The translations under genes were made by a program, and so were the position numbers. A stretch of 64,000 nt of DNA from Cyclina sinensis (lineage: Eukaryota > Mollusca > Bivalvia > Venerida > Veneridae). Below, one piece after another: positions 58,335-63,611 of the stretch (position 1 is the first letter of the stretch; each line of letters opens with the position of its first letter). Under the pieces are notes generated by a model, which saw only the letters and a list, made by a program, of their open reading frames with translations, was not told the origin of the DNA and made no database searches. Location: positions 23,818,461-23,882,460 of the forward strand of contig JAAONU010000001.1 in NCBI GenBank assembly GCA_012932295.1. The letters are read 5' to 3'.

Positions 58335-61300
58335 AATACATAGGTACTTGACTCCCCATTCACCCTCAACCCCCCCCCCCATTTTTTATACCCACCCCCC
58401 ACCCCTGCGCCTTTTTTTTTTTAAACATAGGTACTTTACTCCCCCCCCCCCCCCCCCCCTACCTCAAAAGCCCCCAACCAGTCACCCCCTCCCCCCCACC
58501 TGCCGGGCCCAATTTTTTTTTTTTTAAATTTTAATACATAGGTACTTGACTCCCCATCCACCCTCAGCCCCAGCAGGCTCTTTAGTTATTGTAACAGAGT
58601 ACCCAAGGGCGACACAAGTGTTCCACTGAACACCCATCTAGGTCTAATATATATGAAATTGATAATACTTGCTGAGAGTTGTCTACAATAACTGATCACC
58701 TTATTAAGGGAAAATCAATATCTCCGATAAAATTAGAGAATATATATTAGGCAAAAGAATTGTGTTCCTTATTATGAAATGAAAAATTAAACTGAACTAA
58801 TATTTTCAAAAAACTCTGTAAAACATTTTAGAAGGATGAGTAAATTACTAAAAGGAAACAATATGTTTCATAGGTCAGCTTTTTTGGAAATAAAATGTTT
58901 CTTCTTCATAAGAGGAAAGACTAATACTTCAAATCGCCAGTTAACCTACTAGGTGTAGACTGCTTTTGATAGAATTGTTACTGTAGGCAGTAAATAAGCT
59001 TTATAGAAAATGTTTGACTGTTGTTGTGAAATAAATGTTTGGTTAGACTTCTGCTTGACTGTTGTCTTGAATTAAACGTGCAATAATAAATAAATAAATT
59101 GGTATTTCTAGGTGTGTTTATTATGGCGGCAAGTATTTCGCTATTCATTGGCAATGTCAGAGCTGGCCGAAGTGTGCATTTGAGGATTTTAAGAAACATT
59201 GTGGCGTCCCCGATGTCTTTCTTTGACAAGACACCCGGGGGACGTATCTTAAACCGTTTCAGTAAGGACATAGATGTGATTGATACTCTGATAGCGATCA
59301 ACTTCCAGGCCTGGTTCACGTGCCTTTTACGTGTGCTGTGTGTGCCGATAGTTATAGCATATAGCACACCTCTATTTCTGGCAGTCTTTGCCCCCATAAC
59401 AGTACTGTACATTGTCATTCAGGTTAGTTCAAATGAAGAAATTTCACAGATATATATAGTCAGTATTGTGAATGGGGATCCAGCAGTACACATAACAGAA
59501 TAAAAATAAAGATGGCACTTTTTTCCCCTCTTGAATTCAATATATTTCAAACAGTCCATGTCTTGTATTTTAAATCAATGTAATGGTTAAATTATCAGTG
59601 TTAAAACTTCCAACATAAAAAAATACTTTAAATAACCTCATTGGTACTATCTAACTTTCTGATGACTGTATGTTTACTGTTATTGCTAAGTTTTTCTTGA
59701 GACGTTATGTCTGGACTCACTGAACTTAGGTCTGGGAAAGTATTCAAGATTAACATTTTTGGTTTGAGCGTGTTCTTTTACATAAAAAAAAAAATTACCC
59801 AAGCATTTTCTTAGTAGCTAATCTCAGAAGAATCAATGAGAAAGAAAATGAAATTAATATAATTATGTACTCCCATGATGTAAATTCTTTCCTCCCATAA
59901 AGTAAAAAGGATTTTTCATATTTCATTCATACAGAACTTGCTGAGCAGCTAACTTCTGAATATATTTATAACACTGTTTGAAACTCAGCTACTTAATTCA
60001 ATGAAGTCTGAAACATTCCTTTGTGAAATAAATTATTAATGTATTAATTTAAATCTGAATTATGAACTCACTAAAACAGTGTTGGTAGGTTCAGAATATT
60101 TGGTAACAGGTTTGCAGAAAAACAAAAAACAGAAGGGATTGAAATTTAGTTCATTTTAAAAATCATAATCACATTGTTAACATTATATCACCTAACTTAA
60201 ACAATGAAAGCAGTACAGAAATCATTGCAGTTTTTACCTATGATTGAGAAAAGTACAGGTGATGCTCTAGTTAGGTAATAAAATGCTCCTATTTTATTTT
60301 GTTCTTCTTCATAACACCATTGGGTTTGCAAAAGTAACAAGTACATTCATTGAAGCAATATTTGCTAGTAACCTGCTCTGTAACAGCTGGATAAAGTCTG
60401 TCTGTACTGCTTAAAGTTAGGCTGAAAGTTGAAAAACCTGTCTTGTTACCAGCCCCTGTTTGGCAAGATGCTTGTGTTTTAAGCTTGTGTGGAAACTTTT
60501 TTCTTGTTTTTCTTGTTTGCCTAAAGACACCTGTTAAAAAGCAATAACCCACATCTCCTGCTGACAAGCACAAGGGTCAGCTGTTATTGAAATGTTCCTA
60601 AGGCAAACGTTTCAGCTGACTCCACCCTTGTCATACATGTTTATAATAAGTTGTTGTTTGTAACACTCTTTGTCATTTAGTTGTTGGGGTATAGGTTTTG
60701 TCCTGACCTTTATGTTATTGACCCATACAGTTTAATTATGCCCACAACACCTTCTTTAATTCAGTGGAATTATTTCTTCACAATTAAAGTAAATAACTTT
60801 TCCAAATTTTTCATTTCACATGAAAGTTCTAATACAGTTGCCATGTAGAGTTACAATCCTTTCATTTTTCCTGGGCAGCTTTAGTATTAATTTCAAGTGC
60901 TGTATGTGTTAACAAATTTTGAAAGATGGCTTCGGGGAATATTTTTTGATCTTTGATTTACCTTTGCAAGGTCAGACCTATGTGCATTCTTAATTAATAC
61001 AATTCTTTAAGATATTAATAATTCTGTTATGCATTTCATAACACGCTAGGCTACAAATAACAAACCAACAAAACTGGAAGCTTTTTTTCTACTCAACTAA
61101 TGAGTTTTTTTGACACCTTGTGTTATATTTGAAATAGTATGTGAAAATGTTAATAATTTAGTGTAAACAATTATTTTCTCTTTTGATACATGCACACAGA
61201 CTTTAAACCAAGTACTGCATGCGATGGTGAAGCTGAGTGTTAGGCAATTAATAATCAGGCAGTTAGATAATCAGTCATTGCTGACATATGAAGTAACAAA

Positions 61301-63611: not shown

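Follow-up and report, generated by a model that had tools for sequence, protein, structure and literature searches.

An ABCC1/MRP1-type transporter gene of the clam Cyclina sinensis carries at least three tandem alternative exons, one of which is predicted to be taken into each mRNA, giving isoforms that would be alike but for a 104-residue piece of TMD2 and would likely differ in their handling of substrates. We put the probability of this reading at about 0.88. We infer that all three copies are used in C. sinensis itself.

The window analysed here is the whole 64,000-nucleotide stretch of DNA, and the original prediction that it contains three exons of 311 nt, each entered in phase 1 and left in phase 0, proved exact to the base (Table 1). 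The last constant exon before the array ends one base over, and each copy contributes 103 residues together with the glycine codon that it shares with that exon, making up the 104-residue piece of TMD2. The copies, E1, E2 and E3, agree pairwise at 62, 60 and 60 of 103 residues (58–60% identity), far above chance, and each matches PF00664, the ABC transmembrane region. The top solved-structure matches to a profile of the three copies are ABCC3, ABCC2 and ABCC1, in each case in TMD2 and with aligned stretches that are equally long on both sides. As tblastn queries against the window, E1, E2 and E3 each find three strong matches (E 3e-40 or better) and no complete fourth copy within it, the next best match having an E value of 0.27. 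An origin of the copies by chance, or as repeats, was ruled out by these strong cross-matches and by the single-copy state of the other exons checked.

The gene in which the array is embedded was identified from the constant exons. Joined together, the 14 exons a to n give 800 residues free of stops, which run through TMD1, NBD1 (with the motifs GTVGTGKS and LSGGQ) and the linker into the beginning of TMD2. In a tblastn comparison the MRP1-like protein X2 of Mercenaria mercenaria is collinear with the window from residue 61 to residue 1161 (positions 27671-63611), so that the MRP1-like architecture upstream of the array, from the N-terminal part through TMD1 and NBD1 to the linker, is present. 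The rest of TMD2 and NBD2 would lie beyond the end of the window at position 64000. Thirteen of the 14 upstream exons (all but exon l) were checked by tblastn and at E 0.05 matched only themselves, from which it follows that duplication is confined to one exon. Identity across the constant part is 85.5% with Mercenaria, 84% with Ruditapes, 74% with Mya, 59% with Mytilus californianus and 57.5% with Mizuhopecten; for Argopecten the figure is 67.5%, but the aligned part is shorter (591 residues).

Table 1. Features of the transporter gene and its exon array in the window (splice sites are given in the order E1, E2, E3)
Feature	Position	Strand	Remarks
N-terminal exon region, same gene	27671..32396	+	tblastn with Mercenaria X2 residues 61-265; exon ends approximate
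Constant exons a-m (13)	within 36810..53008	+	TMD1, NBD1 and linker; open frame with exon n
Exon a	36810-37043	+	
Exon b	40551-40728	+	
Exon c	41123-41443	+	
Exon d	44196-44333	+	
Exon e	44656-44802	+	
Exon f	45160-45244	+	
Exon g	45656-45722	+	
Exon h	46979-47105	+	
Exon i	47715-47891	+	
Exon j	48179-48346	+	
Exon k	48605-48789	+	
Exon l	50121-50216	+	
Exon m	52759-53008	+	
Exon n, last constant exon before array	53753..53981	+	TMD2 start; exits phase 1; matched by Mercenaria
Intron upstream of array	53982..59111	+	5130 nt
Exon copy E1	59112..59422	+	311 nt; acceptor ttctag, donor cag/gttagt
Intron E1-E2	59423..61340	+	1918 nt
Exon copy E2	61341..61651	+	311 nt; acceptor tttcag, donor cag/gttagt
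Intron E2-E3	61652..63300	+	1649 nt
Exon copy E3	63301..63611	+	311 nt; acceptor ttgcag, donor cag/gtgggt
Candidate fourth-copy start	63997..64000	+	GAAT after strong acceptor; four bases inside window

Tandem repeats occur in and around the gene. Its introns hold a 32-bp array (49196-49856, 20.7 copies) and a 322-bp array (42070-43703, 5.1 copies), and a 37-bp minisatellite of some 84 copies (23891-26998), with related arrays extending to position 27566, lies just before the first exons found. The intron that precedes the exon array contains a long C/T-rich stretch (57700-58530), within which a C/T-rich repeat was called at 57964-58108. Elsewhere in the window, an open reading frame of 650 residues on the forward strand (186-2135) bears a caspase recruitment domain (CARD, PF00619, E 7e-12) and is likely part of another gene, and broken pieces resembling a Tc1/mariner-type transposase, with helix-turn-helix and DDE_3 matches that all fall under the Pfam cut-off, are found on the same strand at 4176-4914.

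The contention that the reading frame demands exactly one copy was borne out. Each single-copy joining is open through the array, while all four of the possible two- or three-copy joinings meet a stop at codon 107-108 of the cluster, 3-4 codons beyond the 104-codon first copy, and skipping E1, E2 and E3 altogether leads to the wrong phase. Simple arithmetic indicates that the inclusion of four hypothetical copies (1244 mod 3 = 2) would restore the downstream length, with the second copy still out of frame. The mutually exclusive reading is thus supported both by the frame and by the isoforms of Mercenaria, which differ in this segment only. Four MRP1-like proteins of this species, X1 (P0191), X2 (P0188), X3 (P0195) and X5 (P0192), have been annotated by NCBI; each is of 1563 residues, and they vary only at residues 1060-1160, within the segment specified by this exon (residues 1058-1161). 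E1 is 85.6% identical to X2, E2 76.0% identical to X5 and E3 88.5% identical to X1, whereas all remaining pairings give 48–64%. X3 is without a counterpart of its own in the window, its best match being E3 at 57.5%. This one-to-one correspondence, at the level of annotation, is the strongest evidence that points to mutually exclusive use.

Predicted proteins from molluscs largely conform to the same pattern. Among the matches listed, 16 mollusc proteins were examined, and 12 of them have exactly one copy. In the other four, P0186 and P0189 (Mytilus edulis), P0187 (Mya) and P0190 (Tegillarca), two or three copies are joined, which tells against exclusivity; in every one of these a copy is truncated, or is followed by extra residues that pad it out before the next, though one junction in P0186 is without an obvious cut. 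Cutting or padding of copies is what gene predictors do to hold a frame, and the joined-copy models have the look of annotation errors to which arrays of this kind give rise. (P0186 is labelled CRY and also contains PF03441, an unrelated second domain.) A cockroach model, P0124, strings three incomplete copies together in one chain. The other proteins contain one copy in five cases (three snails, a crustacean and a starfish) and none in two partial ones.

The consequences of exchanging this segment can be considered by reference to MRP1. Exon positions 7-103 align to residues 1034-1130 of a 1531-residue MRP1 chain, which we take to be the human protein; individual positions were placed by the alignment offset, exon position p corresponding to residue p + 1027. 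Two positions of known significance fall within the exchanged piece. Human M1093 (bovine M1092) appears among the LTC4-cavity residues, in TM14, in a table of PMC8267652; at this position E1, E2 and E3 have A, M and M, and Mercenaria X2, X5 and X1 have A, H and M, respectively. Since E2 has M where X5 has H, the residue here is not fixed by copy type. The substitution E1089Q is reported in PMC1488846 to affect drug resistance markedly while leaving organic-anion transport unaffected, and the E1089 position is occupied by I, Q and H in E1, E2 and E3, and by V, Q and H in X2, X5 and X1. Because the swapped piece houses both positions, and the copies differ at them, a difference in substrate range between the isoforms is plausible, and we infer it on these grounds.

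It might be argued instead that the exchange alters folding, location or ATP coupling, and not the choice of substrate. The segment does contain an intracellular loop besides its helices, and MRP1/MRP2 chimeras of TM14-TM15-ICL7 are discussed in PMC7203140 among those that were poorly expressed or not expressed. Yet the loop is the part most conserved between copies, with identity across the copies at 22 of 33 positions, as against 14 of 28 in the part that precedes it and 15 of 43 in the part that follows (Fisher p 0.02, with borders that we set ourselves), so that the differences lie mostly in the flanking helices, and the E1089 and M1093 positions are in, or border, the variable part. On balance an effect of this kind in place of one on substrates seems less likely than not, and a difference in substrate range remains the favoured interpretation.

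As to how one copy might be chosen, the most likely mechanism is that competing intronic RNA pairings would select it, as reported for other MRP genes, with decay of out-of-frame messages as a backup that would remove errors. Docking-selector pairings that compete with each other are described in PMC6071210 as guiding the choice in other MRP genes, the docking sites lying downstream of the cluster. A search for such pairings in the window was made with an ungapped-helix score, low-complexity sequence being masked, in four arrangements and with 40 randomised sets for each. In this crude test on one genome nothing clear emerged, the observed score being reached in 34, 11, 3 and 37 of the 40 randomised sets, and the intron that follows E3, which may be mostly outside the window, is where docking sites would be looked for by analogy with those genes. 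Two other mechanisms were set aside: simple steric exclusion, for which the introns between copies (1918 and 1649 nt) are too long, and a clash of spliceosome types, all sites being GT-AG.

An account that dispenses with selection is that exclusivity is not enforced at splicing at all, and that messages with several copies are made and then lost to decay through their early stop. All four multi-copy combinations do stop right after the first copy, introns of the lengths just given leave space for copy-to-copy joining, and the search for pairings was without a clear signal. Against this, competing pairings are reported to steer the choice in other MRP genes (PMC6071210), and the test was a crude one on a single genome, with the intron downstream of E3 perhaps almost wholly outside the window. 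Decay as the sole basis of exclusivity is judged improbable, and choice at the level of splicing is preferred.

The copies are old. Between copies, agreement is 0.31-0.39 at third codon positions, as compared with 0.62 at first positions and some 0.80 at second ones. Third positions are thus near random while second positions are held, which argues that the copies are ancient and that their protein sequence is under constraint. The synonymous distance between them is not estimable, which fits saturation, and the introns have in common only matches of 12-18 nt, of the sort expected by chance.

To place the copies among their relatives, about 5.8 billion predicted proteins were searched with the three copies, which gave 335 matches, of which the first 120 were listed and 75 taken. 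A second search, for which the query was extended by the upstream exon, gave 465 matches; 120 were listed, 62 of them new, and 39 of these were taken. A third, with the whole E1 isoform, brought up annotated proteins and gave 160 matches, of which 120 were listed and 23 taken. Many of the matches resemble single-exon reading frames from genome contigs. If contigs of equal size are taken to be the same contig, then one of 121472 bases bears at least five variants (P0015, P0034, P0129, P0133 and P0160), so that arrays in relatives can exceed three copies; one of 185509 bases has at least four among the matches listed, and those of 8057546, 1932806, 1705520, 1113565 and 7840 bases have at least three each.

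A filter of at least 80 alignment columns retained 115 of 123 proteins. Trees were built with 64 rows, with 108 of 199 rows, and with 31 rows (32 were named, and one duplicate was removed), the rows being hand-picked with coverage, copy type and outgroups in mind, and the 31-row set being picked after the 108-row tree had been seen; the alignment of about 103 columns leaves many deep forks unsettled. In the 108-row tree E1 groups with Mercenaria X2, P0008, P0040 and one copy from Mya (support 99/88), and E3 with P0004 (99/93) and next with Mercenaria X1, P0005 and P0007 (98/89), while E2 falls with Mercenaria X5, P0032, P0030 and P0048 at weak support (83/57). The 31-row tree gives strong support to the E2 group (97/98) and less to the E3 group (89/89). 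Constraint tests on the 31 rows rejected the grouping of E1, E2 and E3 together, at a cost of 113 log-likelihood units (p-AU 1.6e-72), and likewise a grouping of all four copies from Mercenaria (p-AU 1.7e-65). With third positions near random, this rules out a recent duplication within the species. As the copies group with their counterparts in other species, the duplications predate these species, and the copies have come down as distinct lineages. Columns that mark copy type number 5 of 103 over all members of the tree and 21 of 103 within the pairs with Mercenaria, so residues specific to a type are few outside those pairs.

The pteriomorph bivalves (Mytilus, scallops and Tegillarca) have the same MRP1-like segment, with several copies in models from Mytilus and Tegillarca. 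In the 108-row tree six of the ten named pteriomorph rows, with others, make up a separate clade (95/99), whereas three Mytilus rows and Pinctada lie elsewhere; in the 31-row tree four pteriomorph species, each represented by a single row, come together in a clade (98/96). Such a pattern fits largely separate expansions.

This evidence of inheritance also bears on the idea that only one copy is normally used, its two neighbours being silent remnants of duplication. Such an idea can be given very little credence: E1, E2 and E3 are all open with intact splice sites, and every copy has a counterpart elsewhere, including three annotated isoforms of Mercenaria, which is not how relics are kept. That the array is an artefact of assembly, mixing exons from neighbouring ABCC genes, is scarcely credible, for although the window does have an N gap at 23041-23140, the array lies in one gap-free stretch, the 13 exons checked are single-copy, and the same set of variants is found within one gene in other species.

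The array may extend beyond the three copies first noted, as suggested by a candidate fourth copy at the very edge of the window and by the unmatched X3 of Mercenaria. The acceptor at 63997 has a score of 7.6, above those of 12 of the 17 model acceptors (leave-one-out). Of the 464 AG sites present over 8843 bases of intron, seven score as high or higher, and in none of those seven is GA next; by chance about 0.3 such sites would be expected per 385 bases, the length of the stretch after E3. The bases GAAT would read as Gly followed by Ile or Met, which is how the exon begins in P0007, P0010 and P0011, and are at odds with RFYV, the sequence that follows the exon in Mercenaria. From these features, the chances that a fourth copy begins here can be put at about even. 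It is tempting to go further, and to suggest that the array has more than three members, with a fourth at 63997, and constitutes a long-standing library of cassettes for the substrate pocket, every type being passed down across clam families with its own class of residue at the E1089 position, so that one gene would hold several anciently fixed substrate pockets to be chosen between by splicing. The E1 type is indeed found in both Veneridae and Myidae. The full proposal is tentative, and we rate its chances as somewhat below even.

Tandem mutually exclusive MRP exons are already known in flies, in worms and, by citation, in molluscs, and annotated isoforms of this same gene already exist in close relatives. 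Yue et al. reportedly found tandem alternative exons of MRP1 across animal phyla, molluscs included. The exons in molluscs are credited in PMC7434440 and PMC6071210 to that study (Yue et al. 2017, RNA Biol 14:1399), whose arrays, so far as these sources portray them, are like that of the clam in having tandem MRP exons of equal length, with one per message. The original prediction had appealed to tandem exons in the MRP genes of flies and nematodes, and these are documented in print (PMC6071210, PMC9741552, PMC7434440): according to PMC9741552, both Drosophila mrp, with eight interchangeable exons, and C. elegans mrp-1 are MRP1-type genes with mutually exclusive homologous exons, and the two cases are presented there as unrelated events that meet in one structural region. 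A literature search, which reached few subscription papers, found no paper on this array in clams. To this the present analysis adds that single copies have been inherited one to one across clams, and that known pocket positions fall inside the exchanged piece.

Bivalves filter much water and meet many toxicants and algal metabolites. If a piece of the membrane domain can be swapped, a single MRP1 gene would broaden efflux without gene duplication, and the matched copies in other clams would provide a clean test system, in the form of isoforms that differ by one 104-residue piece.
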